Assembly (NCBI GenBank): GCA_902771225.1
Contig: CACXWH010000003.1
Coordinates: forward strand, 1-54,420
Length of the DNA stretch: 54,420 nucleotides
Source: an uncultured Methanobrevibacter sp.
GTDB lineage: Archaea; Methanobacteriota; Methanobacteria; Methanobacteriales; Methanobacteriaceae
Direction of reading: 5' to 3'
Under the pieces are notes generated by a model, which was not told the origin of the DNA, searched no databases, and worked only from the letters and a program-made list of their open reading frames with translations. Positions 16,793 to 34,506 of this stretch are shown piece by piece. Numbering within the stretch: position 1 is the first letter of the stretch; each line of letters begins with the position of its first letter. Position numbers and translations under genes: made by a program.

Positions 16793-17141
16793 AGTGCAAT
16801 ATATTTTCATTATTTTTGGTTGTTAATAATCCGGCAAATGATTCCTGAAGTCATTATGATATTTCTTTTGGAGTATTTTTTTAAAGCAACATTTGCCGTG
16901 GAGGATTTTTTCGTGATTTTTTTGGATCTGCTACAGTATATACAGCATATGATTGGTGTTTTCAGTATTATGATTAATAGTGAATATTAAAATTAGTAAT
17001 ATTTCTAATGACAATTACATCCAAAGAAAAATGTCCAAATTTTTTTTAAAATTCTTTTTACAGTATTGGTTTCTTTATCTGCTGCTTGACAACATTTTGA
17101 TTTTGTTTTTGACATTTAATCACTTTAATATATAAATAGGT
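16793..17141. other. Non-coding stretch before the feo region
   Basis: About 350 bp between the GspF terminator and the inverted-repeat cluster. It holds one candidate minus-strand peptide gene (17005-17115, listed apart) and a possible 25-codon plus-strand frame I do not accept. Otherwise it is AT-rich with no recognised gene. In the minus-strand frame of the candidate peptide, after three stops, a hydrophobic then cysteine-containing stretch continues without a start codon, which might be a decayed small membrane gene. Confidence 0.4.
17005..17115 (-). CDS. Candidate 36-residue cysteine-containing basic peptide
   Basis: An ATG frame of 36 codons on the minus strand. The peptide starts MSKTKSKCCQAADKE, has a basic amphipathic middle (VKRILKKIWTFFF) and ends GCNCH. 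A GTGAT ribosome-binding-like sequence lies 3 bp before the ATG. The paired cysteines at both ends and the position upstream of the feo genes could mean metal binding, but I know no matching family. The frame is short and the local sequence very AT-rich, so it may be chance. Confidence 0.35.
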   Translation of the reverse strand: MSKTKSKCCQAADKETNTVKRILKKIWTFFFGCNCH

Positions 17142-17306
17142 GAAATTAAATATGATAAACATATTTAATTTCGTGAGAGTAGTTATATGTTTTATTAAAT
17201 TAGAAAAGAGAGATAAACTAATTTAATAATAATCGGAGTGTAGTATTTGTTTTTACAAACAACACAAAAGTAATATGAAATTAGATATTTTGGCATAACT
17301 AATTTC
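17142..17306. repeat. Cluster of four inverted repeats upstream of feoB1
   Basis: Four hairpin-forming inverted repeats lie in 165 bp. They are GAAATTAAATATG/CATATTTAATTTC (13-bp arms, 17142-17172), TTATTAAATTAG/CTAATTTAATAA (12-bp arms, 17192-17229), TTGTTT/AAACAA (17247-17262), and GAAATTAG/CTAATTTC (17277-17306). All arms are perfect, and three repeats share an AAATTA core. They may be operators, or hairpins of an untranslated RNA or small RNA made upstream of feoB1. A TATA-like TTTAATATATAAAT lies at about 17123-17136. Confidence 0.6.
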
Positions 17307-17358
17307 TATCACTTATTTATTATTGTTATTAGTTATCATATATTAATCTTTTTATTTT

Positions 17359-17452
17359 TTTTAGGAATGCCTAAAATTATTAAAAGTTTGGTATGCCTAA
17401 ACATTTATATACAATTAAAAATAAACTTTTTAGTAGGTTTAGGTTAACCTAA
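17359..17452 (+). promoter_or_regulatory. feoB1 promoter with putative iron-regulator boxes
   Basis: Three related sites surround a TATA box. TTTTAGG-AATG-CCTAAAA (17359-17376) is an inverted repeat with 7-bp arms. TTTGGTATGCCTAAA (17387-17401) ends 2 bp before the TATA box TTTATATA (17404-17411). TTAGGTTAACCTAA (17439-17452) is a perfect 14-bp palindrome near the expected transcription start. TTAGG/CCTAA half-sites are like those bound by DtxR/IdeR-type iron repressors, so binding of an iron-responsive repressor over this promoter is a natural reading; the regulator itself is not in the window. Confidence 0.65.
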
Positions 17453-17575: not shown

Positions 17576-19594
17576 ATGGGAGAATTAATTGTAGGATTAG
17601 CAGGAAACCCGAATGTGGGTAAAACTACAGTTTTCAATCAATTAACTGGTATGCGTCAACATGTAGGAAACTGGCCTGGAAAAACTGTTGAAAGAGCAGA
17701 AGGTAGTTTCAAACATGGAAGCTATGACTATGATATAGTCGATTTACCAGGAAATTATGCATTAAGTGCTCACTCCATGGAAGAAATCGTATCGAGGGAT
17801 TTCATTGTAGATGATGACTCTGATGTAATTATAAATGTGGTTGATGCTGCTAATCTGGAACGTAATTTGTACTTAACAGTTCAGATGATGGAACTGGGAG
17901 CAAATCTTGTCATGGCACTTAACATGAATGATTTTGCTAAGAAAAAAGATTACATTATTGATATTAAATTAATGAGTGAACTATTAGGTTTTCCAGTAGT
18001 TGAAGTTAATGCAAAAACCAAAGATGGCTTTGATAAATTATTGTCAATTGTCGAAAAACAATCCAAAAAACATATAGACACTAGTAAAAAATTGTCTTAT
18101 GGTAATGACATTAAAGGTCACTTAATGGATTTGCAAGAATTGATTGAACAGGATAATAATTTAATGGATGTTCCTTCAGTTTGGACTGCAATCAAATTAT
18201 TGGAAAAAGATTCAATAGTTATTGAAAAAGTTCAAGGATCTTCTAAAAGTTCTCAAATTTTTGCTGAAGTAGATAAGGTAAGTAAGCATTTATATGATGT
18301 GTATAATGAAAGTCCAGAAGAAGTTATTGCAAATGCAAGGTATGCATTTATCGATGGTTTAATAGCTGAATCTGTAAAAAAACCGGCGGTTGAAAAAGAA
18401 ACTACGACTGATAAAATTGATAAAATTGTTACAAATAGAATTTTAGCTCCGTTTATATTTATTATAATTATGTGGGCAATGTTTCAGTTGACATTCACTA
18501 TTGGTGCTCCTTTCCAAGATATGGTTGGAGGATTTTTTGACGCACTCAAAGAAATTGTAGGAGGATATATCTCTAATGAGCTTTTATCCTCATTTATCTG
18601 TGATGGTATCATTGGAGGTGTAGGAGGCGTTCTTGAGTTTCTACCAATTATTATTCTAATGTTCTTATTTTTGAGCATACTGGAAGATTCAGGATATTTA
18701 GCAAGAGCGGCATTTACTTTAGATATAATCATGCACAAAGTCGTAGGACTTCACGGTAAAGCATTTATTCCTATGATTTTAGGATTTGGTTGTGGCGTAC
18801 CTGCAATCATGGCAACTAGGACAATGGAAAATGAAGGTGACCGTATGCTTGCAATGATGCTTGTTCCATTCATGTCTTGTACTGCCAGGTTACCAATTTA
18901 CGGTATTTTTATAGCAGCATTTTTCGCTGAAAACCAAGGTAATATGTTGCTTGTTATTTACTTGCTAGGTATTGTTGTAGCACTTATTGTTGCAGCTATT
19001 CTTAAAAGAACTCTCTTTAAAGGATTATCCACTCCATTTGTTATGGAATTGCCAACCTATAAAATACCTTCTATAAAAGGTGTGTTATTACACACTTGGG
19101 AAAAAGTAAAAGGATTTTTAAGAAAAGCAGGTACTATAATTCTTGCCTGTTCAATCGCATTATGGATTTTACAAAATATTTACCCATGGGGAGGAACAGA
19201 TCCTCAAATGAGTCTTTTAGGTATTATTGGTAGTGTAATTTCTCCAATCTTTGCCCCATTAGGATTTGGAACATGGCAAGCTGCTGTTGCTATTATTGCA
19301 GGATTAGCTGCTAAGGAAGTTGTAGTTGCAACATTTGGTACATTAGCAGGTATGGAAGAAGATGATGAGGAAGGAATAACTAATTTAATACATGATACAT
19401 TTAATCCTTTGTCTGCGTTTTCATTCATGGCATTTACTTTATTGTACACTCCATGTTTTGCAGCTATCGGTGCAATCAAGCAAGAAACTAATAGTTATAA
19501 ATGGCCGTTAACTATGTGTGCTATTACATTAGTCACTGCTTATATTGTTTCATTTTTAATCTTCCAAATTGGAGGATTGGCAGGATTCGGTTAA
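17576..19594 (+). CDS. feoB: Ferrous iron transporter FeoB, copy 1
   Basis: A 672-residue FeoB. The N-terminal GTPase domain has G1 GNPNVGKT (residues 10-17), a T-containing G2 region, G3 DLPG and G4 NMND. It is followed by a helical regulatory domain (about 175-270) and a membrane domain from about 285 with the two Gate motifs, [10 protein letters not shown] and a second set near the C-terminus. FeoB moves Fe2+ across the cytoplasmic membrane. It is followed by feoA and a cysteine-rich small protein, and the whole cassette is repeated downstream. Its first 470 bases are about 96 percent identical to copy 2, while flanking parts differ much more. The 5' leader from the likely start is long (about 140 bp). 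Confidence 0.96.
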   Translation: MGELIVGLAGNPNVGKTTVFNQLTGMRQHVGNWPGKTVERAEGSFKHGSYDYDIVDLPGNYALSAHSMEEIVSRDFIVDDDSDVIINVVDAANLERNLYLTVQMMELGANLVMALNMNDFAKKKDYIIDIKLMSELLGFPVVEVNAKTKDGFDKLLSIVEKQSKKHIDTSKKLSYGNDIKGHLMDLQELIEQDNNLMDVPSVWTAIKLLEKDSIVIEKVQGSSKSSQIFAEVDKVSKHLYDVYNESPEEVIANARYAFIDGLIAESVKKPAVEKETTTDKIDKIVTNRILAPFIFIIIMWAMFQLTFTIGAPFQDMVGGFFDALKEIVGGYISNELLSSFICDGIIGGVGGVLEFLPIIILMFLFLSILEDSGYLARAAFTLDIIMHKVVGLHGKAFIPMILGFGCGVPAIMATRTMENEGDRMLAMMLVPFMSCTARLPIYGIFIAAFFAENQGNMLLVIYLLGIVVALIVAAILKRTLFKGLSTPFVMELPTYKIPSIKGVLLHTWEKVKGFLRKAGTIILACSIALWILQNIYPWGGTDPQMSLLGIIGSVISPIFAPLGFGTWQAAVAIIAGLAAKEVVVATFGTLAGMEEDDEEGITNLIHDTFNPLSAFSFMAFTLLYTPCFAAIGAIKQETNSYKWPLTMCAITLVTAYIVSFLIFQIGGLAGFG

Positions 19595-20191: not shown

Positions 20192-20519
20192 TCTTCAAAT
20201 TAATTTTTTCATGCTTTTAATAATTTTTTAAAAATTGAGTAATATTCATATTATTCAAGTGCTTTGCCCACATACCCATTATAATGGCTTTGCTCATTAT
20301 ATCAACCTTAATTGTTCATTTATAAGTATTATATTTTTTACTTATAAGCAAATTCCAAATTTTTTTGGTATACCTAAATACTTATATAATATTAAAACTA
20401 ATTTAATTATAGGTTTGGTTTTTCATGATTTTTGATAGGCTTAAACTGAATAATTTTTTTAGTATGGGTTTATATTTTTTTAGAGTATTATTATCTGAAA
20501 TGAAAATGAGGTATGTTTG
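20192..20519. other. Intercassette region before feoB2
   Basis: These 328 bp separate the two feo cassettes. They hold the feoB2 box and TATA box (20364-20389, listed apart) and an AT-rich leader of about 110 bp. Open frames across it lack ribosome binding sites and known motifs. I see nothing else here. Confidence 0.6.
20364..20389 (+). promoter_or_regulatory. feoB2 promoter: iron-type box and TATA box
   Basis: TTTGGTATACCTAAA (20364-20378) matches the feoB1 box TTTGGTATGCCTAAA at 14 of 15 bases. TTATATAA (20382-20389) follows after 3 bp, the same arrangement as at feoB1, where the gap is 2 bp. Conserved box-TATA spacing in otherwise unlike sequence supports a real regulator site covering the transcription factor B/TATA region. 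Confidence 0.7.
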
Positions 20520-22538
20520 ATGAAAAAATTGATTGTAGGATTAGCAGGAAACCCGAATGTGGGTAAAACTACAGTTTTCAATCAATTAACTGGTATGCAT
20601 CAACATGTAGGAAACTGGCCTGGAAAAACTGTTGAAAGAGCAGAAGGTAGTTTCAAACATGGAAACTATGGCTATGATATAGTCGATTTGCCAGGAAATT
20701 ATGCATTAAGTGCTCACTCCATAGAAGAAATCGTATCTAGGGATTTCATTGTAGATGATGACTCTGATGTAATTATAAATGTAGTTGATGCAGCTAATCT
20801 GGAACGTAATCTGTACTTAACCGTGCAAATGATGGAACTGGGAGCAAATCTTGTCATGGCACTTAACATGAATGATTTTGCTAAGAAAAAAGATCACATC
20901 ATTGATATTAAATTAATGAGTGAACTATTAGGTTTCCCAGTAATTGAAGTTAATGCAAAAACCAAAGACGGTTTTGATGAATTATTAACTACTGTTGAAA
21001 AAGCTTCTAAAAATCCAATAGATTCAAGTGCTAAATTATCCTATGGTGATGAATTAAAAGAACATTTATCTGATCTTCAAGCATTAATTGAACAAGATAA
21101 GAATTTACTGGATGTACCATCTATTTGGACTGCGATTAAGTTATTAGAGAAAGATTCAATTGTTATACAAAAAGTTCAACAATCCGCTATTAGTTCTAAA
21201 ATCATGATGGAAGTTGACAAAGTAAGTAAACACCTTATTGATATATATAATGAAGGTGCAGAAGAGGTTATTGCAAATGCAAGATATGCATTTATCAGTG
21301 GTTTAATGGCCGAATCAGTTAAAAAACCGCAAGTAGAAAAAGAAACAACTACTGATAAAATTGATAAAATCATTACAAATAGACTTTTAGCTCCTTTTAT
21401 TTTCCTTGGTATAATGTTTTTGATGTTTCATTTAACATATACAATAAGTGCTCCTTTTCAGGGCATGATTGATAATGGATTTATCATGTTGGCTGATTTT
21501 GTAGCAGGATATATTTCCAATGAATATTTACGTTCATTCGTCTGTAATGGTATTATTGGTGGTGTAGGTGGTGTTCTTGTATTCCTGCCAATTATTATTC
21601 TGATGTTTTTATTCTTAAGTATTTTAGAGGATTGCGGTTATCTTGCAAGAGCAGCATTTACACTTGATATTATTATGCATAAATTAGTAGGACTTCACGG
21701 TAAAGCATTTATTCCTATGATTTTAGGATTTGGTTGTGGCGTACCTGCAATCATGGCAACCAGAACAATGGAAAATGAATCTGACCGTTTATTAGCAATG
21801 ATGCTTGTTCCTTTTATGTCTTGTACGGCTAGAGCACCAATTTATGCAATTTTTGTTGCAGCATTTTTCGCCCAATACCAAAGTATCATGGTAACCTTGA
21901 TGTATGTTATTGGTATTGTTGTAGCACTATTGGTTGCAGCTATTCTTAAAAGAACTTTATTTAAGGGAATGTCTGCACCATTTGTTATGGAACTTCCAAC
22001 ATACAAAATTCCTTCTTTAAAAGGCGTATTGCTTCACACATGGGAGAAAGTGAAAGGATTCTTAAGAAAAGCAGGTACTATTATCCTTGTCTGTTCTATT
22101 GTTTTATGGATTTTAAGTAGTTACCCATGGGGTGTGAAATATGGATCTGAACAAAGTGTTTTGGGTATGATTGGTAATGTTGTTGCTCCAATTTTTGCTC
22201 CTTTAGGATTTGGAACCTGGCAAGCGACTGTAGCTATTATTTCAGGTTTAGCTGCTAAAGAAGTTGTTGTTTCAACATTCGGTACATTAGCAGGTATGCA
22301 AGGAGATGATGGAGATGGAATTACTTCATTGGTGCATGATACATTCACACCATTGTCAGCATTCTCATTCATGGTATTTGCATTGCTTTATATTCCGTGT
22401 GTTGCATCTATTGGTGCAATCAAACAGGAAACTAACAGTTTTAAATGGCCATTAATAATGTGTGGTATTACTTTAGTAACTGCATATATTGTATCCTTCT
22501 TAGTTTTCCAAATTGGAGGATTAGCAGGATTTGGATAA
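20520..22538 (+). CDS. feoB: Ferrous iron transporter FeoB, copy 2
   Basis: A 672-residue FeoB with the same domain plan as copy 1: GTPase G1 [16 protein letters not shown], helical linker, and a membrane domain with [10 protein letters not shown]. It starts at ATG 20520 with GAGGT about 9 bp upstream; a TTG one codon earlier is less likely. The membrane domain differs from copy 1 at many places (for example [17 protein letters not shown] against IIMWAMFQLTFTIGAPF) and the linker is clearly divergent, so the two may differ in affinity or regulation. Near-identity is limited to the first 470 bases and a 75-base patch at 21687-21761. It is followed by a second feoA and cysteine-rich peptide. 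Confidence 0.96.
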
Positions 22539-22971: not shown

Positions 22972-23172
22972 ATGAAATGTAGGATGTGTGGTTTTGAATT
23001 TGATGAAAATGAATTGGAAAACCGCGGATGTTCCAATTGTGGAAAACATGATAACTGCAGACAGGTGCACTGTCCGAACTGTGGCTTTGGTAATCATCCG
23101 GAATTTGAAGAGGAATTCGAGTTTATAGTTAAACTTAAGGAAAGATTTAAAAAGCGAAAATCAACAAATTAA
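22972..23172 (+). CDS. Feo-associated cysteine-rich small protein, copy 2
   Basis: A 66-residue homologue of the peptide at 20003-20191, with CRMC, CSNCGKHDNC and CPNCGFG and a charged tail (FEFIVKLKERFKKRK). The ATG at 22972 is favoured over an upstream GTG at 22960 because GGTGGTG lies just before it. Its TAA stop overlaps the TAA stop of the convergent cbiO gene in a shared TTAA. The repetition of this third gene in both cassettes argues that it belongs to the iron system. Confidence 0.8.
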   Translation: MKCRMCGFEFDENELENRGCSNCGKHDNCRQVHCPNCGFGNHPEFEEEFEFIVKLKERFKKRKSTN

Positions 23173-24008
23173 CTTTTTTTTATTTTCATTATTTCATCAA
23201 TTACTTCATCTAGATTAATTTTTGTCGTATCAACATTAAATCCTTTTTCTTTTAGTTTATATAAAATTTCTGTTGTTATTGGAGCTTTTAAATGTGCTTT
23301 TTTTAATAATTCTTTATTGGAGAATATTTCATGTTTATCTCCTCTTGCAAGAAGTTCTCCTTCATATAAGACAAAAATTTTTTCGGCAAAACCGTTTACC
23401 ATTTCTATATCATGTGATGATATCACAATGCTCATTCCATCTTTGTTTAAATTATTTAAAATAGTTAATACTTGGTCTACACCTTGTGGATCCAGTCCTG
23501 CTGTTGGCTCATCGAGTATCATTATTTCAGGTCGCATAGCTATTATTCCGGCAATAGCTACTCTTTTTTGTTGGCCTCCACTTAAATGGTGGGGTGTTTT
23601 ATCTTTAAACTTTTTCATTCCAACTAATTCCAATGCTTCATTCACCCGTTTTTCTACTTCTTCATAATCTAATCCTAAATTCATCGGGCCAAATGCAACA
23701 TCTTCTTTTACTGTTGGTGCAAATAATTGGTCATTTGGGTCTTGAAACACGATTCCAACTTTTTGTCTAATTTCTAAAAGTGTTTTTTTATCATATTCCA
23801 TTTTTTTTCCATCTAGTTCTAGATATCCTGATGTAGGTTCTGTTAATCCATTGAAATGGGAAAACAATGTTGATTTTCCAGCACCGTTTGGTCCCATTAT
23901 TGCAACTTTCTCTCCTTTAAAAATTTCCATATTAACATTTTTCAATGCACGGGTTCCATCAGGGTATGTGTAACTTAAGTTTTTTACGGATAGATGTGAT
24001 TCATTCAT
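23169..24008 (-). CDS. cbiO: Cobalt/nickel ECF transporter ATPase CbiO
   Basis: A 279-residue ATP-binding protein with Walker A GPNGAGKST, Q-loop VFQDPNDQLF, signature LSGGQQKRVAIAG, Walker B MILDEPTAGLD and switch SSHD. The FQDPNDQ motif is typical of ECF-type energising subunits. It powers uptake with CbiQ, CbiM and CbiN, encoded upstream in the order M-N-Q-O, with 13 bp between cbiQ and cbiO. Its stop codon overlaps that of the convergent Feo-associated peptide gene. Whether the ion is cobalt or nickel cannot be read from this subunit. Confidence 0.93.
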   Translation of the reverse strand: MNESHLSVKNLSYTYPDGTRALKNVNMEIFKGEKVAIMGPNGAGKSTLFSHFNGLTEPTSGYLELDGKKMEYDKKTLLEIRQKVGIVFQDPNDQLFAPTVKEDVAFGPMNLGLDYEEVEKRVNEALELVGMKKFKDKTPHHLSGGQQKRVAIAGIIAMRPEIMILDEPTAGLDPQGVDQVLTILNNLNKDGMSIVISSHDIEMVNGFAEKIFVLYEGELLARGDKHEIFSNKELLKKAHLKAPITTEILYKLKEKGFNVDTTKINLDEVIDEIMKIKKS

Positions 24009-24021
24009 AATCTCAGCCCCA

Positions 24022-24852
24022 TTAATTTATAGATAAGTTCTCTCCAAAGTATCCTAACTGATTTGAATATTTAATTATAATGATTTGTAATATAATGACT
24101 AATATTATTATGGTGGAAATATATATGTAGTCTGATTTTTCAAGGGATGTCTTTTCATTAAATAAATCAGATTTATCAGAAAATCCGCGGCTAATCATGC
24201 TTTTATAAACTCTTTCACCTTGTTCATATGATTTAACAAACATCATGGCAATTGAATATCCTACTTGTTTTATTCTCCATTTGTAAGGTGTTAATTTGGA
24301 GTGAATATGAAAGTTTCTTGATTTTTGTGATTTTCTAATTGCTGCAAGTTCATCAATAAATACAAATAAAAACCTTACCATAATACTTAAAATCATTGCC
24401 AAATCTTTTGGCATTTTTAATCTTCTAAATGAAGCAACAATTTGTTGCATTGGACTTGTAGAAGATAAAATCACAATTGATGTTAATGAAACAATCATCC
24501 TAGTAATTAACAATATTGCCCAATTTAATCCAGTATCCGTTATTTTAATCCATGAATATGACCATAAAATATTTCCTGGATGAATAAATGGTTGAAAAAT
24601 AATTATTGCTCCTCCAAAAGGAAGTAATAATGCAATTCTTTTAAATGAGTCGATGTATGATAATTTAGCTATTTTAATAATTATTAACAGGAAAATTTCT
24701 AGAATAATTGGTATAAAAATGTTATTTGAAAAAGCAGCAATAACTATGATAAATACTGTAGAAATTAATTTAATTCTTCCATCTAATCTATGAATTGGAC
24801 TGTCCTTTGATGCTAGTTCATCTAGGTTAAGAGCTTTTGTAATATCAGCCAT
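24022..24852 (-). CDS. cbiQ: Cobalt/nickel ECF transporter transmembrane protein CbiQ
   Basis: A 276-residue membrane protein with about five helices. It contains FRRLKMPKDLAMILSIMVRF and, further on, MMFVKSYEQGERVYKSMISRG; the second is the conserved coupling helix of ECF T-subunits that contacts the ATPase. The N-terminus (SPIHRLDGRIKLI) also fits the family. It follows cbiN by 75 bp, a gap with a small hairpin over the cbiN stop, and precedes cbiO by 13 bp. Confidence 0.92.
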   Translation of the reverse strand: MADITKALNLDELASKDSPIHRLDGRIKLISTVFIIVIAAFSNNIFIPIILEIFLLIIIKIAKLSYIDSFKRIALLLPFGGAIIIFQPFIHPGNILWSYSWIKITDTGLNWAILLITRMIVSLTSIVILSSTSPMQQIVASFRRLKMPKDLAMILSIMVRFLFVFIDELAAIRKSQKSRNFHIHSKLTPYKWRIKQVGYSIAMMFVKSYEQGERVYKSMISRGFSDKSDLFNEKTSLEKSDYIYISTIIILVIILQIIIIKYSNQLGYFGENLSIN

Positions 24853-24916
24853 ATTATTTCTCTGTAAATTTTTATTATATATTATAATTGGTATGTAAAA
24901 AGGAGTATAAAAAGAT

Positions 24917-24935
24917 GAAGTTAGAATTTAACTTC
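24917..24935 (-). terminator. Hairpin over the cbiN stop codon
   Basis: GAAGTTA (24917-24923) and TAACTTC (24929-24935) form a 7-bp stem with a 5-nt loop that includes the cbiN stop. On the minus strand it is followed by a short T-rich stretch. It may partially end transcription between cbiN and cbiQ or protect the cbiMN message. Confidence 0.4.
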
Positions 24936-25215
24936 TTCTTTTTACGATTTCTGCAATTCCCCATCCGCATACAAGTGTCAGTACAACACCTAAAATAAGA
25001 ACACCTACTTCACCAATAGACTCAAAAGGTTCAAAGGTGTAGTCTGGGAATGGTGGGGTGATAACTACTGTTGCTTTATCTTCACTAACATTAGCATCTT
25101 CTGCAGATTTTTCTAATCCATCAGGATCTCCTGATGCTATAAAAGGAGCAAGACAGCAGATTATAACGGAAATTATAATTGCAATAATTATTAATGTTTT
25201 ATCACGTTTATCCAT
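24928..25215 (-). CDS. cbiN: Cobalt/nickel ECF transporter small subunit CbiN
   Basis: A 95-residue protein with two membrane helices (about residues 7-27 and 68-90) and an outside loop containing the family motif PDGLEKSAED. CbiN is the small accessory component that, with CbiM, forms the metal-selective core of the transporter. Its start is 1 bp after the cbiM stop, so translation is coupled. Confidence 0.92.
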   Translation of the reverse strand: MDKRDKTLIIIAIIISVIICCLAPFIASGDPDGLEKSAEDANVSEDKATVVITPPFPDYTFEPFESIGEVGVLILGVVLTLVCGWGIAEIVKRRS

Positions 25216-25216
25216 T

Positions 25217-25861
25217 TTATTCTCCTCCTTCTATTCTATTTTTATTCCATATCAAAAGGTCCGGTCTAAACTTATCTAATGCCATTAATACAATTACAGT
25301 TAATACTGCTTCGATTATTCCGATAAATATGTGGTATGTTACCATTGAAGCAATTCCTACTGTTAATGGGAATGTTCCAGCAATTGCCATTTCAATTGCA
25401 CATGCTAATGCTGCAACAACAGTTGCTAACCATGCACCAATACCGGCTGATGCATAGATTCCAAGTTTTCCTTTTAATGCTTTGAATGTGTATAGTCCAG
25501 TACATCCTCCAATTATTGCCATGTTCAATACATTTGCACCAAGTGCAGTAATTCCTCCGTCTCCAAAGACTAAGGCTTGGATAAGCAATACTACGGTAAA
25601 TACGAGAATTGCTGCTTCGGGTGCACAAAATATTATTGCTACTAATGCTCCACCTACCATGTGTCCACTTGTTCCAAATGGAATTGGCATGTTCATGGAC
25701 ATTATAGCAAAAATACCTGCTGCAAGTACTGCAAGAAGAGGAATACGTTTTTCATCGAGATTTTCTCTTGCCCATTTGCTAGCAAAATACAATCCAATGA
25801 TTAATATGATATAGTAGATTGCACATTGCCAGAATGGTATAAATCCATCAGGTATATGCAT
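25217..25861 (-). CDS. cbiM: Cobalt/nickel ECF transporter substrate-binding membrane protein CbiM
   Basis: A 214-residue membrane protein beginning MHIPDGF. This N-terminus loops back into the membrane and its His2 and amino group bind the metal in CbiM/NikM proteins, so the start is certain; GGAGG lies 7 bp before it. About six helices follow, with MNMPIPFGTSGHMVGG as a second conserved metal-site region. It heads the cbiMNQO operon. No cobalamin riboswitch is seen; instead the promoter carries GTATTAC boxes that also occur at the [Fe]-hydrogenase genes. That would fit a nickel or cobalt responsive regulator, and the substrate could be nickel. Confidence 0.93.
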   Translation of the reverse strand: MHIPDGFIPFWQCAIYYIILIIGLYFASKWARENLDEKRIPLLAVLAAGIFAIMSMNMPIPFGTSGHMVGGALVAIIFCAPEAAILVFTVVLLIQALVFGDGGITALGANVLNMAIIGGCTGLYTFKALKGKLGIYASAGIGAWLATVVAALACAIEMAIAGTFPLTVGIASMVTYHIFIGIIEAVLTVIVLMALDKFRPDLLIWNKNRIEGGE

Positions 25862-26017
25862 TTATTTTTCCTCCATTTAGTTGAAGTAATACTTTTTTAA
25901 TGTTTAAAAGCATTATTTCTTTTTAATTTTATCAAGTTTTAAAGATTTAAATTCAGTTTTACTAATGAATTTTCCTAAATTTTTCTTGATAATAAAGAAT
26001 TTTTCTTTTTTTTATAT

Positions 26018-26083
26018 ATAAAGATTATTAAAGTATTACTTTATACCTTATTTTTTTAAAAAAAGTATTACTTTTTTAATACT
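26018..26083 (-). promoter_or_regulatory. cbiM promoter with GTATTAC boxes
   Basis: A TATA box for the minus strand (TTTATATATAAA) lies at 26018-26030. Directly upstream is GTATTAC (26033-26039), and 32 bp further GTATTAC again (26065-26071), the latter part of the inverted repeat AGTATTA/TAATACT (26064-26083). The same seven bases occur four times in the hmd-hcgG intergenic region with near-equal spacing. A repressor bound here would cover the TATA/BRE. A further reverse copy lies at 25886-25892. Confidence 0.55.
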
Positions 26084-26113
26084 ATATGAATATTTTTTTT
26101 AATTTTTGTAATA

Positions 26114-27397
26114 CTAATTTGATAATGATTTAAAAATTATTATCATGTAAATAAAAATAGCTGTTGCAAAGTATAATAAAACTTGAATGTCTAATATTCC
26201 GGTTTCAACACCGAGGATGGAATAAGTTAATATTAGGCTATAAAGTCCAATGTAAAAATAATTTTTTGTTTTTCTCATTATTTTAAATCCAATACCTAAA
26301 ATAAATCCTAAAATACCCATTTCAATAGCCACACCTACTTTTCCGAAATCAGCTACCATCTGGCCGATTAATGTTGGTGTAATAGTTACTTCTGTTCTCC
26401 ATGCAATCAATTTGCCTATCATCATTCTAGGTCCAAGTTCACTTCCAGGTATTGCACTTGCAAGTAACTTGCCATGGGTTACACCGAAGTTTCCTCCTAT
26501 TATGTCAAGTAAACTCAAAACATGCAATGTGAAGTCTGCTCTACTTTTAAGTGTGTAAAATGGATCTATTGCATTACTTATTGTTAACTCATGGATTGAC
26601 CTGAAATATCCGATTCCGATAATTGCACCTATACCAATCAATGCACCTAAAACAACTTCCCATACAGCTATAATATTTCCATAGTATGCTATGATAATTA
26701 GTGAGAGTAATGCTGCAAGTAGTGGTGTCCTATAGCCTAGAGTTAATAAAAGTGAAACATCCATGGTGAGGAGAATTAGAAATCTGAATCTAACCTGTGA
26801 ACGGGTGATTTTTTTATCTTGAAAATCTTTTAGATAAACGCTCGCTAGAATACATGTTCCGGGAATTATTAAAAATACTGGCATGGTAAACATAGGTTTT
26901 AATAAATATCTAATGGATGGTTTTAATATAGGAACTCCGCCAACAGAAGCAATACTGATAAAGAAAAATCCGATACTTATTAATACCAAACAAAATCCAA
27001 TTGAATAAATGTCTCTTCTTTTAAAAATCAAAACATTATCCAGATTATTATTTAAAAAAAATCTGGGTAAAATTGCAGCACCAATAAAAAAGAACAAAAA
27101 TGCAATAATCAATGTTTCAAATAAACTCCAGGAGATAGGGGTCAATGAAAGCGATAGAAAGCTTGCAAATACAACTAAAACAATCAATGGATTAAATAAG
27201 TGATTTTTTAAAATATAACTCTTTTTCAAAAAGCTTAAAAAATTTTCACCAGGATACAATCCTTTAAAAAAGCTATTGACCCATTCATTTTCTATAAATC
27301 TGATGATTGAAAAAATGCTAGTAAATAAAAAGGATTTATGAAATTCATCATTTATTAAATTTAATAATGAGGTTAATTTAGAATAAATGAGGCTCAT
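26114..27397 (-). CDS. Oligosaccharide repeat-unit polymerase-like membrane protein
   Basis: A 427-residue polytopic membrane protein with about ten to twelve helices and a central loop carrying LTLGYRTPLLAALLS and, later, RADFTLHVLSLLDIIGGNFGVTHGKLLASA. Arginine-rich short motifs in loops between helices and this overall layout are like Wzy-type polymerases that join lipid-linked sugar repeat units outside the cell. In Methanobacteriales such proteins may serve surface polysaccharide or pseudomurein-associated glycans. It is followed after a 12-bp gap by nothing on its own strand and is preceded by the anchored protein gene (27410), with which it probably forms an operon. The family call is moderate. 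Confidence 0.6.
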   Translation of the reverse strand: MSLIYSKLTSLLNLINDEFHKSFLFTSIFSIIRFIENEWVNSFFKGLYPGENFLSFLKKSYILKNHLFNPLIVLVVFASFLSLSLTPISWSLFETLIIAFLFFFIGAAILPRFFLNNNLDNVLIFKRRDIYSIGFCLVLISIGFFFISIASVGGVPILKPSIRYLLKPMFTMPVFLIIPGTCILASVYLKDFQDKKITRSQVRFRFLILLTMDVSLLLTLGYRTPLLAALLSLIIIAYYGNIIAVWEVVLGALIGIGAIIGIGYFRSIHELTISNAIDPFYTLKSRADFTLHVLSLLDIIGGNFGVTHGKLLASAIPGSELGPRMMIGKLIAWRTEVTITPTLIGQMVADFGKVGVAIEMGILGFILGIGFKIMRKTKNYFYIGLYSLILTYSILGVETGILDIQVLLYFATAIFIYMIIIFKSLSN

Positions 27398-28745: not shown

Positions 28746-29306
28746 CTATTTTTCAATTATTTCAGTATTTTTTAAATTTTTTATTTCGTCAATTTTATCG
28801 TTTAAAAAAAGTAGTATTATATTGATGGCTTTTTTTATTCCACTATTTTGTCTTTGAAATAATTCTTCACTTTTATTTTCCCGTAAATCACTATAAACGT
28901 CACTTGTTGTTGTTATTTCATAGTTTGGGGTGATGATGGTAACGGCTCCATGGCCTATTCCTGCAGTTGTTCCAATTGCAATATCGCAGTCAGTAAGTTC
29001 CATAACTGCTTTTGCCATAACTTTGCTGGTTTTTTTATCTCCCACCTCATCATAAACCTTAATTCCTTTTATAAGATAATCTGGTTCTGGGGGGTTTTTT
29101 ACATTTAAAATATCATTCATGGCATCTATTGTCGGTATAAATAAACTGCAGATGACGGATAATTCATTATAATCAAAATTTCCATATCCACTAATGTTTT
29201 CAATGTATCTACTCCCAAAGTTTCCTTCGTAATTTTGAGCAAGCGCATGCAGTTCTAAACCAATTTTTCCATGAGTAAAACACTCTGCAGTAGCTATTTT
29301 AATCAT
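28746..29306 (-). CDS. hcgF: FeGP cofactor biosynthesis protein HcgF (UPF0254)
   Basis: A 186-residue protein beginning MIKIATAECFTHGKIG. Cys9 in this segment is the residue that forms a thioester with guanylylpyridinol in characterised HcgF proteins, and it is present. Further conserved stretches are ECFTHGKIGLE and IGTTAGIGHGAV. HcgF works with HcgE in activating the carboxyl group that becomes the acyl ligand to iron in the [Fe]-hydrogenase cofactor. It is the last gene of the hmd-hcgABCDEF run, overlapping hcgE by 8 bp. Confidence 0.9.
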   Translation of the reverse strand: MIKIATAECFTHGKIGLELHALAQNYEGNFGSRYIENISGYGNFDYNELSVICSLFIPTIDAMNDILNVKNPPEPDYLIKGIKVYDEVGDKKTSKVMAKAVMELTDCDIAIGTTAGIGHGAVTIITPNYEITTTSDVYSDLRENKSEELFQRQNSGIKKAINIILLFLNDKIDEIKNLKNTEIIEK

Positions 29307-29952
29307 ATTTATCTCTTAAAAGTTTTAATGCATTTATTGTTATGATTTTTGCAACTTCATCTAAAACATATGGGGTTATAGGTTCGTTGTCTTTGATTAA
29401 TTTGTGTGTTGTTAATATTAAATGATTTTCTGTAATTCCTTGAGCCCTTAACTCTTCAATAGCAGGATTGTTGTTGTCGTATTCAGATATGTCTTTAATT
29501 TCAATGTCTTCATTACCAAAACCAAATATTCCTGCAGTTCCAATGGTTTTAGCACCTATTTTCTGAGCATGTTTTATAATTTCTGCTGCTGTTGATATTG
29601 TATTTCCTCCAGCTATAACTATTATTACAACATCACCATCTATTAATTCAATATTTTCTTTAGTAATGTATTCGGTATGGCTTTTAATTATTCTAAAGTC
29701 TTCATCATGAGTGCATATTCTTTTTAAGAAATCTGGCTTTGCCTCTCCAATTTCTGCTCCATTAAGAGTAAATATTACATCTCCTCCGGAGATTTTCTGT
29801 CCGTCAAATGCGGAAATCATTTTCGGTCCGCCTCTATGGACTTGCATTAAATTAATGCATATTCTCAAACCTAATCTTCCACACCCAACAAGATCAATTT
29901 TTCCTTTAGGTACTAATTTGTCTTCTATTTTCTGTATTTCATCAACACTCAT
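29299..29952 (-). CDS. hcgE: FeGP cofactor biosynthesis protein HcgE (ThiF/E1-like)
   Basis: A 217-residue protein of the E1/ThiF fold with nucleotide-binding LVGCGRLGLRICINL near the N-terminus and a GGNTISTAAEI loop. HcgE adenylylates the carboxyl group of guanylylpyridinol with ATP and passes it to HcgF. The ATG at 29952 is preferred, since GGAGTG lies 8 bp upstream; a GTG at 29961 would add three residues. It overlaps hcgD by 11 bp and hcgF by 8 bp, the tight coupling typical of this cluster. Confidence 0.9.
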   Translation of the reverse strand: MSVDEIQKIEDKLVPKGKIDLVGCGRLGLRICINLMQVHRGGPKMISAFDGQKISGGDVIFTLNGAEIGEAKPDFLKRICTHDEDFRIIKSHTEYITKENIELIDGDVVIIVIAGGNTISTAAEIIKHAQKIGAKTIGTAGIFGFGNEDIEIKDISEYDNNNPAIEELRAQGITENHLILTTHKLIKDNEPITPYVLDEVAKIITINALKLLRDKYD

Positions 29953-30649
29953 TTTTTTCACACTCCATTGGGGGTTTATTAATTATTTCACAGTCAATAT
30001 TTAATTCATCGACGATTTTTTTTAAATAATCAAGGCCTGGAAGCTCACTGTTGTGATGACCTAAATCAATCAATATCAAATTTAAATTTATTGCTAAAAT
30101 TGCCGTTTTTTGAGTCAAATCTCCGGAAATTAGCATATCAATATCTTTGTCTTTAGCTAATTTAATGTGTTCTGGGTTTTTTAAACCAAATCCTGAAATA
30201 ACTGCTATTCTTTGAATTATTTCATTTTCATCCGGTTTATTTACAATATTAAATGAATTGAAATTAGTCAAAATTTGTTCTTTTAATTCTTTATAGGTTA
30301 AATTAGATTCACATATTCTTCCAATATTTGTATTTTTATCAAAAGATTCTATAATATTTAAATTCAGGCTGTTTGCAAGTGCTTCATTAGCACCACCATC
30401 GATAATATCCCAATTTGAATGTATTGTGAAAGTTGGTGTCTTCGGATTGAATAATGGGGGGTGGTGTGTAATAAGTAATGTATCTTTAGAATAATTGTCA
30501 TCTTGTGGGTGCAAGTCCATAAATATTTTTATGGAAGTTATTTCTTGTGTTAAATCATATTTTCCCATCAAACCAACTTTATCATTGCTTAAAGCCAAAT
30601 CTTGCGGTATTTTATTATTTAAAAATTCTATAATTTCATTAAGTTTCAT
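29942..30649 (-). CDS. hcgD: FeGP cofactor biosynthesis protein HcgD (Nif3-like)
   Basis: A 235-residue Nif3-family protein. LLITHHPPLF is the first metal-binding motif and LIDLGHHNSELPG the second, which together form the dinuclear iron site of this fold. HcgD is thought to deliver iron for the FeGP cofactor. It starts directly after the hcgC stop (30650) and overlaps hcgE by 11 bp. The C-terminus is cysteine-bearing (PPMECEKNEC). Confidence 0.9.
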   Translation of the reverse strand: MKLNEIIEFLNNKIPQDLALSNDKVGLMGKYDLTQEITSIKIFMDLHPQDDNYSKDTLLITHHPPLFNPKTPTFTIHSNWDIIDGGANEALANSLNLNIIESFDKNTNIGRICESNLTYKELKEQILTNFNSFNIVNKPDENEIIQRIAVISGFGLKNPEHIKLAKDKDIDMLISGDLTQKTAILAINLNLILIDLGHHNSELPGLDYLKKIVDELNIDCEIINKPPMECEKNEC

Positions 30650-31435
30650 TTAAATCATTTTTGATTTGATTTTATCTAATTCATTCTGCATTATTTCGTC
30701 AGGGCTGATTTGATTAATGGTCGATATTTTAACTGCTTGTTTGTCTGTTAATTCAATAAACTTATCAATATTTTTTTCTTTAAATATGATTTCTTCAAAA
30801 AATCCCATTTCACAAGCACTATAAAGAACACCGTCCTTTTTAGATATTTCATTTAGTGTGTTTGTTAAAACACCTATTGTTAGTGTCATGGTTCCTGAAG
30901 TTTTAGTATTGATACCTTTTGTTTTTAAGATTGCTTTATTTGATGATTTAGCAGCATTCAACCGATTTTGGATATTGTTTTTTTTCTTTAATAGTTCATC
31001 ATTATCTTCAGCTACAGGGTCTTCTATTAGGAATGCTTTAACATTAAATTTTGAGGATTGTTCAATATTGATGCCTCCAAAACCTGTTGTATCAATAACA
31101 ACATTTCCACTATATATTAAATCTAAATCAGATGAAAATTTTACTTTATTTTTAAGTTCTCCACCAATAGAGGTATACAGTAGTTCTTCTAAATGCGGAT
31201 AAATGTCAATTAATGTAATGTTTGTGTATTTTTCACTTAATTTTTTAATAATTCCCACACCAGTAAAATAAGTGCCTATGACGATGATTTTTTCATCTAA
31301 ACTGAGATTTAGATTTTCAATATAGTCAAAGCATGCTTGTGACTTTTTATTAATGATATTATTAAAAATATCAATCAATTTGATTTCAGATTTTATTGTT
31401 AATACTTCTTCAGTAATGCCTGTGTCAATATCCAT
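30650..31435 (-). CDS. hcgC: FeGP cofactor biosynthesis methyltransferase HcgC
   Basis: About 261 residues in a Rossmann-like arrangement: IIVIGTYFTGVGIIKKL forms the nucleotide/SAM loop and VVIDTTGFGGI lies at the end of a later strand, matching HcgC (DUF1188). HcgC methylates the pyridinol ring of the cofactor precursor. The ATG at 31435 is chosen because AAGTGAT, overlapping the hcgB stop, is a proper ribosome binding site 4 bp before it; an upstream in-frame start at 31474 would lie inside hcgB. Confidence 0.88.
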   Translation of the reverse strand: MDIDTGITEEVLTIKSEIKLIDIFNNIINKKSQACFDYIENLNLSLDEKIIVIGTYFTGVGIIKKLSEKYTNITLIDIYPHLEELLYTSIGGELKNKVKFSSDLDLIYSGNVVIDTTGFGGINIEQSSKFNVKAFLIEDPVAEDNDELLKKKNNIQNRLNAAKSSNKAILKTKGINTKTSGTMTLTIGVLTNTLNEISKKDGVLYSACEMGFFEEIIFKEKNIDKFIELTDKQAVKISTINQISPDEIMQNELDKIKSKMI

Positions 31436-31439
31436 TTTA

Positions 31440-31913
31440 TCACTTTTCAAATCCGATTTTTTCAAGTGCTTCACATGCTTCGTTGTATACTGCTTCTTCT
31501 ATTGGTTTTTGGTGTATTGCATGTGAAGGGGAAGTTCCACAGGTCAATATTCTTCCTTTATTGTCAATAAAAATTAAAAGTGAACCTGAACCTGGAATTC
31601 CAAGCCGTCCTCTTGCGATAATTAAATCAGCATCACTTTGATCAAGAGCCATATATGCTTTTGCAAGGGCAGGGATTCTGCTTGTGTCTGCAATATTGGT
31701 GTTGATATGAAGTATTTCTGCAGTATGCAAATTATATTCACTTAAAACTTGATTTAAAACTTTCACTTTAATTCCGTTTTTGTTTGGAATATAAATTTTT
31801 TGTGCATTTTTGATATAATCTTGAATTTCTTTGATTTCTTCAAGAGTATCCCCAAATCTGCAATTATTTTCAGATTCTTCAAATGCATTTTTAATCATTT
31901 TTTCAAATGCCAT
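31440..31913 (-). CDS. hcgB: Guanylyltransferase HcgB of FeGP cofactor synthesis
   Basis: A 157-residue protein of the DUF3236/HcgB family, whose members are about 155-160 residues. Recognisable parts are ADLIIARGRLGIPGSGSLL and LTCGTSPSHAIH. HcgB joins GMP from GTP to the pyridinol, forming guanylylpyridinol. It lies 24 bp downstream of hcgA and 4 bp before hcgC. Confidence 0.9.
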   Translation of the reverse strand: MAFEKMIKNAFEESENNCRFGDTLEEIKEIQDYIKNAQKIYIPNKNGIKVKVLNQVLSEYNLHTAEILHINTNIADTSRIPALAKAYMALDQSDADLIIARGRLGIPGSGSLLIFIDNKGRILTCGTSPSHAIHQKPIEEAVYNEACEALEKIGFEK

Positions 31914-31937
31914 AATATCATATTTTAAAAAAAGAGA

Positions 31938-32936
31938 TTAAATAATTTGAGGTATTAAATCTAATTTTTCAATAACATCAACTACTTTGTTATAATTGCC
32001 GTAATTAGGAGAACCTACTCCTTTAACTTCATGAGGGTAATTATCTGCAATAACAGTAGCTAAATTATTTGCACCGGCTTTAAGTGAAAACTCTACATTT
32101 TCAGGACCTACTGTTGGTGTTGGCATGGTAATTGTAATTTCCGGATACATTATGCGTGTAATTGCCACCATTTTTAATTGTTCTTTTAGTGGAAATGCCG
32201 GATAATTTGCCATTGGTGTATCTGGATATGGGTTAAATCCCATTATGGGTATTTCTTCTAATGTTTTAAAGTTTGATAAATAACGTAAATGTTTGATTCT
32301 GTCTTCTTTACTTTCACCGAGTCCCAATAATAATCCTGAAGATAATCCAATTCCTGCATCACTTACTCTTTTACAGGTTAATATTCTTTGATTAAGAGAG
32401 TCTCCGGGTTTTCTTTGATAGAATACATCTTCATTTATTGTTTCTAAATTACAACAAATAGTATCCACTCCCAGATTAGATAACTCCTCAACTGCTTTTT
32501 CTGTTAAATCTCCACCAACATTAACAAGAATTTCCAGATTTGAGTTTTCTTTCACGATTTTGCATGCATTGACTGCTTGTTTTCCTTTATAGCCATATCC
32601 TCCAGAACAGCTTACGCGAGGAATATGTGCTTCTTGGATGGATTTGACTGCACTTAATATTTCACCATTGGATTTATAAAATGCATTATAGTATCCTGTT
32701 GAAGATGTTTCTTCTGCAAATCCACAATATTCGCACCTAGGTTGAATTTGACATTTATTGGTGAGATGAACTGTTGATGTTAATTTAATTACTTTTGATT
32801 GATTATCTCTTATTTCACAAGCTGTTTTGAATAATTTTTCTAATTCTTTTTCATCATCATTATTTAACAATTCTAAAAATTCATTATCAGTTAATTCTTT
32901 CCCTTGTTTTGCTTTATTTAAAATTTCATCAATCAT
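31938..32936 (-). CDS. hcgA: Radical SAM enzyme HcgA of FeGP cofactor synthesis
   Basis: A 332-residue radical SAM protein related to BioB. Its cluster motif is NKCQIQPRCEYC, a CX5CX2C spacing that marks HcgA and differs from the standard CX3CX2C. VSCSGGYGYKG is the SAM-binding GGE-like region and later parts (GLLLGLGESKEDRI) match BioB/HydE-like barrels. It is thought to build the pyridinol ring. It is separated from hmd by 115 bp carrying two strong hairpins, and is the first of the six hcg genes on this strand. Confidence 0.92.
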   Translation of the reverse strand: MIDEILNKAKQGKELTDNEFLELLNNDDEKELEKLFKTACEIRDNQSKVIKLTSTVHLTNKCQIQPRCEYCGFAEETSSTGYYNAFYKSNGEILSAVKSIQEAHIPRVSCSGGYGYKGKQAVNACKIVKENSNLEILVNVGGDLTEKAVEELSNLGVDTICCNLETINEDVFYQRKPGDSLNQRILTCKRVSDAGIGLSSGLLLGLGESKEDRIKHLRYLSNFKTLEEIPIMGFNPYPDTPMANYPAFPLKEQLKMVAITRIMYPEITITMPTPTVGPENVEFSLKAGANNLATVIADNYPHEVKGVGSPNYGNYNKVVDVIEKLDLIPQII

Positions 32937-33051: not shown

Positions 33052-34065
33052 TTATTTGTCTTTTCCTAAATAATCTAATACGGTAGGTACGATTTCAGCT
33101 AAAGAACCGAAGTTCATTGAGTCAGCAGTACCTAATAATGCAGCAGGGTTTAAAGCATCGTCCATTTTGTCGATACCTTCATCTTGCATTAATGCAGTTA
33201 CATTGGATAATGCTTCATAAGCCATACTTTGTGCAAATCCAGCAGGTGCACCTAAGATTTGGGTAACTGTGTCTCTGTAAGCTAAGATACCTGCATAGGT
33301 AATTGCAGTTACTGCGGAACACATATCACATACAGGACCAACCATGTTAGCAGGTAATGTGAATGCGGATCCTCTTGCTTTTTGACCTAAGTCCATTAAT
33401 GTGTCGATAGATGCTTGGTCTGCAAAACCTTCTGCAATGTAAACTTGTCCTTTCATTTCAGGTACAGCACCAGGGTGGTAGGAAGCTACGTTTACATTTT
33501 TACCTAAGTCTTCAAAGATTTTATTTAATCCAGGAGTTGGGATAGTACATGCGTGGGTTACGATTGCACCGTCTTTGATATCTTCAGCGAAGTTTTTGAT
33601 GATGTCAGGTTGCATTCCTCCTTCTGGTAACCAGGTCATAACCCAGTCAGCGTCAGCAACAGCTTCGGAATCATCGTTTAAACATTTCATTCCTAAGTCT
33701 TCTGGGTGGGTAAAGTGAATAGCACCTTTGGATGGTTTAGGTACGGTTTCAGCTAATTTACCTACTTTTTCTCTGATTGCAGGCATTACTTCTTCAGGGT
33801 TACCTGCTTTGTGAGCTGCAATAACTTCTGCGTAATCGAAGTCATCTACTACAGTAAAGTCGCCGTCAAATATCGGGTCGGATACAACTACTTCGTCAAC
33901 ACCAGCTAATTCTAATAATTCTGCACCCATTTCGATGGTTGAATGAGTCATTGAGATGTTTTCTTTTCCGGTTGCTTCTGCAACTTCACAAGCTCTTGAG
34001 AAGTTGGTAATTCCACTTGCAGCATGGGTTCTGTAACATCCTGCACCTAAAATTGCTACTTTCAT
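33052..34065 (-). CDS. hmd: [Fe]-hydrogenase Hmd (H2-forming methylene-H4MPT dehydrogenase)
   Basis: Hmd catalyses the reversible reduction of methenyl-H4MPT with H2 in CO2-reducing methanogenesis, using an iron-guanylylpyridinol cofactor and no nickel. From the MKVAILGAGC start the protein has 337 residues. His14 (YRTHAASG) is the catalytic-site histidine, and HACTIP at Cys173 supplies the iron ligand (Cys176 in M. jannaschii). The Rossmann domain comes first, then a helical dimer domain with GPVCDMCSA. AAAGGAGAT lies 6 bp before this ATG. A second in-frame ATG at 34125, with AAGGAG before it, would add a 20-residue lysine-rich leader; a third, at 34167, is weaker. It is probably a highly expressed gene with a long leader. 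Confidence 0.97.
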   Translation of the reverse strand: MKVAILGAGCYRTHAASGITNFSRACEVAEATGKENISMTHSTIEMGAELLELAGVDEVVVSDPIFDGDFTVVDDFDYAEVIAAHKAGNPEEVMPAIREKVGKLAETVPKPSKGAIHFTHPEDLGMKCLNDDSEAVADADWVMTWLPEGGMQPDIIKNFAEDIKDGAIVTHACTIPTPGLNKIFEDLGKNVNVASYHPGAVPEMKGQVYIAEGFADQASIDTLMDLGQKARGSAFTLPANMVGPVCDMCSAVTAITYAGILAYRDTVTQILGAPAGFAQSMAYEALSNVTALMQDEGIDKMDDALNPAALLGTADSMNFGSLAEIVPTVLDYLGKDK

Positions 34066-34306
34066 TTTTTTATCTCCTTTATCTTTTTTACCTTCTAATT
34101 TTTCTTTTAATTTAGAAAGAACCATTTTCAAGTCTCCTTTATATTGGTTTTCTTTCTTTTTTTTCATTTCGAAAGGTTGTTACTACAATGTTAAACAAAG
34201 GTTTGATTTTATTGTTAGACATATTTGTTAGGTAGTTAAAACATGTAGTAATATTTTTTATTAAATTTTTCATACTATATAAATCTTTACATATGGCTTT
34301 AAATTT

Positions 34307-34386
34307 GTATTACTAGTTTTTATGTTCTTTATTTATATAGTATTACTAGTATTACTTTTTTATCTATATAATTAAAAAAGTATTAC
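34307..34386. promoter_or_regulatory. Four GTATTAC boxes between hmd and hcgG
   Basis: GTATTAC occurs at 34307-34313, 34340-34346, 34349-34355 and 34380-34386, all in the same orientation and with an A or T run after most. Spacings are 33, 9 and 31 bp; the larger ones equal about three helical turns, as at the cbiM promoter (32 bp). A metal-dependent regulator is plausible, with nickel the likeliest signal because Hmd replaces nickel-dependent steps. The regulator is not in the window. Confidence 0.5.
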
Positions 34387-34420
34387 TTTATTATTTTAAT
34401 TAATCAAATTATAACTTATT

Positions 34421-34435
34421 TTTGGTGCGCCTAAA
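34421..34435 (+). promoter_or_regulatory. Iron-type box upstream of hcgG
   Basis: TTTGGTGCGCCTAAA matches the feoB1 box TTTGGTATGCCTAAA at 13 of 15 bases and the feoB2 box at 12 of 15. It lies about 8 bp before a likely TATA element of hcgG and 71 bp before the hcgG start. It is embedded in AT-rich sequence, so its GC-containing core stands out. Confidence 0.55.
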
Positions 34436-34506
34436 AACGAAAGTTTTTTATTTAACATTGCACTGAAATATAATTTGACTGACAAGGTTAGTAGGAGTTT
34501 ATTTCA

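Follow-up and report, generated by a model that had tools for sequence, protein, structure and literature searches.

Paired nickel-type boxes and a candidate iron-type box in the divergent hmd/hcgG region of Methanobrevibacter

The hmd/hcgG region and its nickel-type boxes

Hmd, the [Fe]-hydrogenase, contains one iron and no Fe-S cluster. In an uncultured Methanobrevibacter sp. (2.36 Mb searched, in 122 contigs), hmd lies divergent from hcgG, and the stretch between them carries boxes of two kinds, nickel-type and iron-type. This raises the question of whether the region responds to one metal or to two, and at which gene each would act. An initial annotation had proposed a two-metal hub that would let the cell choose between nickel- and iron-based hydrogen use. 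The FeGP cofactor is completed by HcgG (PMC10100467; this and the other papers cited are represented here by parts of their text), and Hmd has been described as a nickel-limitation enzyme missing from many mesophilic clades (PMC13135261). The features of the locus, in a window of 54,420 nucleotides (the whole stretch of DNA that was analysed), are:

28746-32936, minus strand: hcgA-hcgF cofactor cluster, downstream of hmd
33052-34125, minus strand: hmd, [Fe]-hydrogenase (TIGR01723, E 9.6e-172; start codons and GGAG read by eye)
34307-34346: predicted nickel-type operator O1, boxes 34307-34313 and 34340-34346, step 33
34349-34386: predicted nickel-type operator O2, boxes 34349-34355 and 34380-34386, step 31
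34421-34434: iron-type (DtxR-like) box TTTGGTGCGCCTAA, a palindrome match to TTWGGNNNNCCWAA
34507-36006, plus strand: hcgG (HmdC), divergent from hmd (TIGR03958, E 1.2e-214)

Within the cofactor cluster, HmdB/HcgA matched TIGR03957, HcgB PF11576, HcgC PF06690 and HcgF PF06787; the reading frame in the HcgD position matched DUF34_NIF3, and the one in the HcgE position (29299-29961) had no Pfam match. The hmd reading frame opens at 34167, and the likelier starts, each preceded by GGAG by eye, are 34125 and 34065, so that the true intergenic stretch is probably longer than 339 bp. These nested in-frame starts (34065-34167, minus strand) would give Hmd an optional Lys-rich N-terminal extension; some relatives have one too. 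Related hmd loci came mostly from Methanobrevibacter MAGs, many of them of rumen or gut origin.

Exact GTATTAC occurs four times between hmd and hcgG (34307, 34340, 34349 and 34380). Dinucleotide-preserving shuffles of 34168-34506 held 0.13 copies on average and never reached four in 20,000 trials, while the TTWGGNNNNCCWAA palindrome appeared in 7 of 20,000, so the co-occurrence of four GTATTAC boxes and one iron-type box described in the initial annotation is borne out. In the whole window, 15 exact copies were found against 6.1 expected. Across 37 distinct aligned loci, the nickel box columns had 80-85% identity to the window, compared with 55% elsewhere. GTATTAC and GTAATAC, which are reverse complements, interchange among species at the same positions, indicating that the motif is GTAWTAC, a pseudo-palindrome symmetric about its middle base; GTATTAC, previously taken as the box itself, is, thus, present four times but is one reading of this motif. 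The same free exchange rules out box orientation as a signal.

Two or more GTAWTAC were present in 37 of 42 hmd/hcgG loci from the genus, and fewer in G008, G054, G013, G021 and G011. The 42 loci come from 41 genomes, one with two copies, and include two locus pairs identical over the last 300 nt; the incomplete hcgG matches in G037 and G038 were left out of the count. An exact pair with a step of 29-34 was found in only 24 of the 42, as individual boxes frequently deviate by one change. Six M. olleyae-like hmd/hcgG loci, which are not part of the genome sample described below, had three to five GTAWTAC each. In 15 hcgG loci from beyond the genus, the stretch examined never contained two exact GTAWTAC.

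A genus-wide box pair and its candidate regulator

Genome-wide, GTAWTAC-N1-31-GTAWTAC was found 13 times, against six for the reversed control, and 11 of the 13 pairs had a start-to-start step of 31-34, with steps of 8-38 allowed. The stricter GTAWTACT-N20-27-AGTAWTAC was retrieved at 323 sites, covering all 52 same-genus genomes (control, 3 sites), and in none of 33 genomes outside the genus, a sample with 12 members of the same order and no other genera of the same family. Among the matches listed, 73 distinct pairs had steps of 29 (2), 31 (6), 32 (38), 33 (26) and 34 (1), placing 70 of them at 31-33 under a pattern that permitted 28-35. The spacing of the pair is three helical turns.

Within the window, the pair has one further companion:

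23169-25861, minus strand: cbiMNQO-type nickel/cobalt ECF transporter
25886-26114: four GTAWTAC upstream of cbiM, starting at 25886, 26033, 26065 and 26108

The boxes at 26033 and 26065 form a pair with a 32-bp step, and for three of the cbiM boxes none of 20,000 shuffles reached that number. On other contigs, one pair immediately precedes the gene for a family-5 solute-binding protein (contig C1, 20507), another separates the genes for an ABC ATPase and an acetyltransferase (C1, 18945), and others lie upstream of the genes for CobN (C43, 30563) and for a DUF3344 surface-type protein (C43, 33635). Three more stand beside a P-type ATPase gene (C88), each spanning a TATA-like sequence. At hmd/hcgG, unlike at the ATPase gene, the TATA boxes that are predicted and conserved lie outside the pairs; O1 spans one TTTATATA, which, among 25 aligned near loci, is present only in the window, L002 and L009. 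One pair on contig C5, within a reading frame and with a step of 18, was taken as chance. We infer that cbiMNQO, the family-5 ABC genes and cobN serve nickel rather than cobalt or peptide.

Two further observations concern these boxes. Near cobN, two large DUF3344/Big_1 surface-type proteins are encoded (L060:6629-14972, minus strand), one gene preceded by a nickel-type pair and the other by a single GTAWTAC, which suggests that these surface proteins may be nickel-regulated. At the end of contig C4 (L059:6181-6680, plus strand), a nickel-type pair is followed by a TATA-like box, with no long reading frame close downstream. This stretch contains a GTTTGAAGT...ACTTCAAAC hairpin, identified by eye, with TTCCCTC between the arms; BLASTN found similar sequences in L262-L266, making it a candidate nickel-responsive RNA.

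The genome encodes one NikR (PF08753, E 1.1e-30). A single NikR was also found in 48 of the 52 same-genus genomes, the four without it being 77-89% complete. The protein aligns over its full length with solved NikRs, retaining the His/His/Cys pattern of the nickel ligands and R-S-S in the first strand. The paired-box genes probably form a nickel regulon of this single NikR, which would bind the GTAWTAC pairs. Such a regulon resembles the delta-proteobacterial one, where the half-sites GTGTTAC/GTAACAC are close to GTATTAC/GTAATAC, nickel transporter genes are among the targets, and nickel was predicted, in 2004, to repress through NikR a nickel-independent hydrogenase, hydAB2 of D. desulfuricans (PMC545781). 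It differs in that the hydrogenase here is Hmd, not the iron-only HydAB, and that a second, iron-type box is present.

The operator geometry also differs. Delta-proteobacterial half-sites lie N13/14 apart, for 27-28 bp overall (PMC545781), whereas the sites described here span 38-41 bp and so exceed those by roughly one helical turn, and their boxes lack the N13/14 inverted arrangement that defines that regulon. This three-turn spacing means that the regulator may be other than NikR, namely an undescribed protein responding to nickel and/or cobalt. The strict pair being confined to the genus in our sample, although 24 of the 33 genomes outside the genus encode NikR, points the same way, as do the possibility that cbiM and cobN are cobalt genes and the presence upstream of nikR of only a GTATTAT variant, with no exact box in the surrounding 9 kb. 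Against this stand the half-site likeness (PMC545781) and the nature of the target, hmd/hcgG being consistent with nickel. We regard a different regulator as somewhat unlikely and retain NikR as the probable one.

Nickel control of hmd is itself established physiology in Methanothermobacter (PMC12350162, PMC3087415). Under nickel limitation, M. marburgensis raises Hmd, HcgG, a CobN homologue, a NikR homologue and transporters (PMC12350162); of these, Hmd, HcgG, CobN and the transporters match the paired-box gene set found here. In contrast to the present analysis, the text of that study lacks the word 'promoter', and the portion covered gives no operator. Upregulation of hmd transcription under nickel limitation has also been reported together with several NikR genes, with no operator given in the part covered (PMC3087415). 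Likewise, the parts of PMC2739858 and PMC2667541 considered name no nickel operator or iron box at hmd/hcgG, and none appeared in titles and abstract openings of the open-access literature searched, which included few subscription papers. The joint iron arm has no counterpart in the literature surveyed, as far as the parts covered go. The present analysis contributes an explicit operator, the regulon that goes with it in one genus of gut methanogens and, at the completion of the FeGP cofactor, a candidate input for iron.

The iron-type box and the sign of its effect

The iron-box consensus of DtxR/IdeR proteins is a TTAGG-N4-CCTAA palindrome, and these proteins are generally repressors. Genome-wide, TTWGGNNNNCCWAA was found 24 times, compared with 13 for the reversed-pattern control; a single match is, thus, weak evidence and some matches are chance. 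Of the 24 matches, five belong to the window and a further 15 were viewed in 13 stretches, a set without the four on C8, C10, C33 (16836) and C56; the matches at C4:36938, C9:53214 and C34:20470 lie within reading frames. The iron boxes at the feoB genes, and the predicted core promoters of hcgG and hmd, are:

17361-17452: three iron boxes (17361, 17387 and 17439), upstream of feoB1 (17576-19594)
20364-20377: iron box upstream of feoB2 (20517-22538)
34245-34253, minus strand: conserved GTAGTAATA element close to the predicted start site of hmd (95% identity, 37 loci)
34276-34290, minus strand: predicted hmd TATA and BRE (85% identity, 37 loci)
34438-34452, plus strand: predicted hcgG BRE (CGAAA) and TATA-like box (TTTTTATT from 34445), by consensus reading (85% identity to the window, 37 loci)
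34462-34468, plus strand: predicted hcgG start region ACTGAAA (92% identity, 37 loci)

An iron box was also located just upstream of the dtxR gene, and another at a gene pair whose second member is cysteine desulfurase-like by eye. The genome encodes one DtxR-family protein (a single PF02742 match), whose relatives in the PDB include IdeR, DtxR, ScaR and MntR and which has Cys where ScaR has Glu. Boxes of the TTAGG-N4-CCTAA type at feoB and upstream of a dtxR-type gene are shared with known DtxR/IdeR systems; here, by contrast, one is also found at a hydrogenase-cofactor gene, beside the BRE and not over it. As described in the initial annotation, the two adjoining uptake systems carry one box type each, cbiMNQO having GTAWTAC without an iron box and both feoB genes iron boxes without a GTAWTAC pair.

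At hcgG, the exact iron box was present in 21 of the 42 same-genus loci. Relative to the hcgG ATG, its position was confined to -81 to -86, directly next to the predicted hcgG promoter in every case. Each of these 21 loci also has two or more GTAWTAC, so both site types coexist, at fixed positions, in half of the loci. Among exact boxes, the GG/CC core is constant while the N and W positions vary freely; averaged over the 37 aligned loci, the box columns have 55% identity, the same as their surroundings, with 57-70% in the GG/CC core. The iron box is about 130 bp from the predicted hmd core promoter, which assigns the iron arm to hcgG, and hmd probably responds to nickel alone. The two-metal hub proposed for hmd and hcgG together is, thus, retained as a pairing of sites and narrowed to hcgG on the iron side.

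The other 21 loci have no exact box. On an HcgG tree built quickly from 30 loci, a set overlapping but different from the 42 in which 16 carry the exact box, the distribution of the box required eight parsimony changes, at least three of them forced (on starred branches), and shuffled labels needed as few changes in 70 of 500 cases. Gain and loss on this scale, with half of the loci lacking the exact box, indicate that the iron arm is labile and no constant element of the region. These data also count for the possibility that the hub responds to nickel only and that the iron box is lineage-restricted or decaying, with little effect. The exact box was likewise absent from the six M. olleyae-like loci, the 15 hcgG loci outside the genus and, at hcgG, the 12 same-order genomes examined. 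The constant placement relative to the hcgG ATG and the core kept while N positions vary argue the other way, and the predicted box is credible through its position; we consider a nickel-only hub rather unlikely and continue with an iron input at hcgG.

Searched in 120 relatives, the joint pattern GTAWTAC-N25-45-TTWGGNNNNCCWAA matched 51 times, against 12 in the control; the matches fell in 37 genomes (36 of the 67 same-genus ones), and the 30 loci inspected included hmd/hcgG, a mobB-like locus and reading frames. The mobB-like locus was set aside as a second two-metal hub, its box being followed by an A-rich run and lacking the T/A flank that nickel-type pairs have. GTATTAC precedes TTAGGTTWACCTAA-like palindromes by 26-27 nt at L094-L097, L099, L105, L106, L109, L113, L115, L119 and L121. 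These lie, by eye, upstream of a MobB-like gene, except L097 and L115, where only a divergent HTH gene is shared; in several, a MoaA-like radical SAM gene follows the MobB-like gene.

The sign of the iron effect was approached through box placement. At hcgG, 10 nt separate the iron box from the TATA-like box, and CGAAA is intact. Among the matches listed from 61 relatives, gaps between a box and the next TTTATATA were mostly 1-4 nt or 12-14 nt, two classes read by eye with a few matches outside both. In the first, exemplified by feoB1, the box covers the BRE; in the second, the BRE is intact and, by eye, the box precedes small-RNA-like genes.

Archaeal activators frequently bind just upstream of the BRE, so the hcgG arrangement counts for a reading in which iron-loaded DtxR activates hcgG while NikR-nickel represses. 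In such a two-metal gate, NikR-nickel would silence the divergent region, DtxR would recruit the transcription machinery from upstream of the BRE, and the cofactor would be finished only at low nickel and adequate iron. The intact BRE, unlike the 1-4 nt class of feoB1, fits this reading, as does CGAAA beginning 2-3 nt after the box where it is present in the aligned loci inspected. Conversely, DtxR proteins are usually repressors, and the intact-BRE class precedes small-RNA-like genes that are presumably iron-repressed, by analogy with bacterial iron-sparing RNAs; their similar placement means that box position was rejected as proof of activation. We hold iron activation, and with it the gate just described, to be distinctly unlikely. 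Repression is the default sign, and activation the bolder reading. Were iron to activate, the hub would be the AND gate of the initial annotation, a logic that is a guess.

A metal-sparing model and candidate iron-box RNAs

The composite model, to which we would give roughly even prospects, combines NikR operators O1 and O2 with a DtxR box at hcgG in a metal-sparing switch. It builds on observed features, namely the boxes with their conservation and spacing, the genes that accompany them, and the one NikR and one DtxR encoded; the promoters, the protein bound at each box and the sign of either effect we infer from sequence. Boxes 1 and 2, and 3 and 4, would form two operators of the genus-wide nickel regulon. 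With ample nickel, the single NikR would most likely bind O1 and O2, holding down hmd-hcgA-F and hcgG, and with scarce nickel both operators would be released. Separately, a DtxR-type regulator would bind the box abutting the hcgG BRE and adjust hcgG, whose product completes the iron-guanylylpyridinol cofactor. Iron-loaded DtxR would be expected to repress hcgG, as is presumed at feoB, and low iron would, thus, also favour Hmd over the Fe-S-rich [NiFe]-hydrogenases.

If both metals repress, the most metal-frugal hydrogenase would be on when either or both run low, depending on how the sites combine, and Hmd may serve metal sparing generally, beyond the replacement of nickel alone. Iron limitation of M. 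marburgensis left methanogenic enzymes not significantly changed, except MtrCDE, in the portion of the study covered (PMC12350162), which counts against the iron arm. The nickel-to-iron hydrogenase switch is now directly testable in organisms relevant to ruminant methane.

RyhB and PrrF are bacterial iron-sparing RNAs, and small-RNA-like genes behind iron boxes were also observed in the present dataset. In the window, one such gene (17138-17318, minus strand, limits by eye) is divergent from feoB1, with its iron box at 17361-17374. It has a TATA-like box, a CTACACTCCGATT core and an end hairpin, and resembles, by eye, the candidates in L240, L245 and L250. It appears to belong to a candidate family of RNA genes of about 200 nt (L082:2925-3132, plus strand; L081:2263-2453, minus strand; L240-L253). 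The gap from iron box to TATA is 11-15 nt in these candidates, and in 25 of 27 stretches the longest reading frame starting within 295 nt encodes at most 50 aa. A search for the core pattern retrieved it from 38 of 52 same-genus genomes, from none of 33 others and not in the control. Six loci (L081, L082, L087, L240, L244 and L245) had no Rfam match at E up to 1, and no comparable archaeal iron-sparing RNA was found in the literature surveyed, by title or abstract start. By analogy, the candidates are possibly archaeal counterparts of RyhB/PrrF-type RNAs. Their CTCC-rich stretches could pair with ribosome-binding sites. RNAalifold paired only one hairpin across 23 of the candidates, with weak energy, and several stretches, chosen for this feature, hold two to four copies about 300 bp apart.
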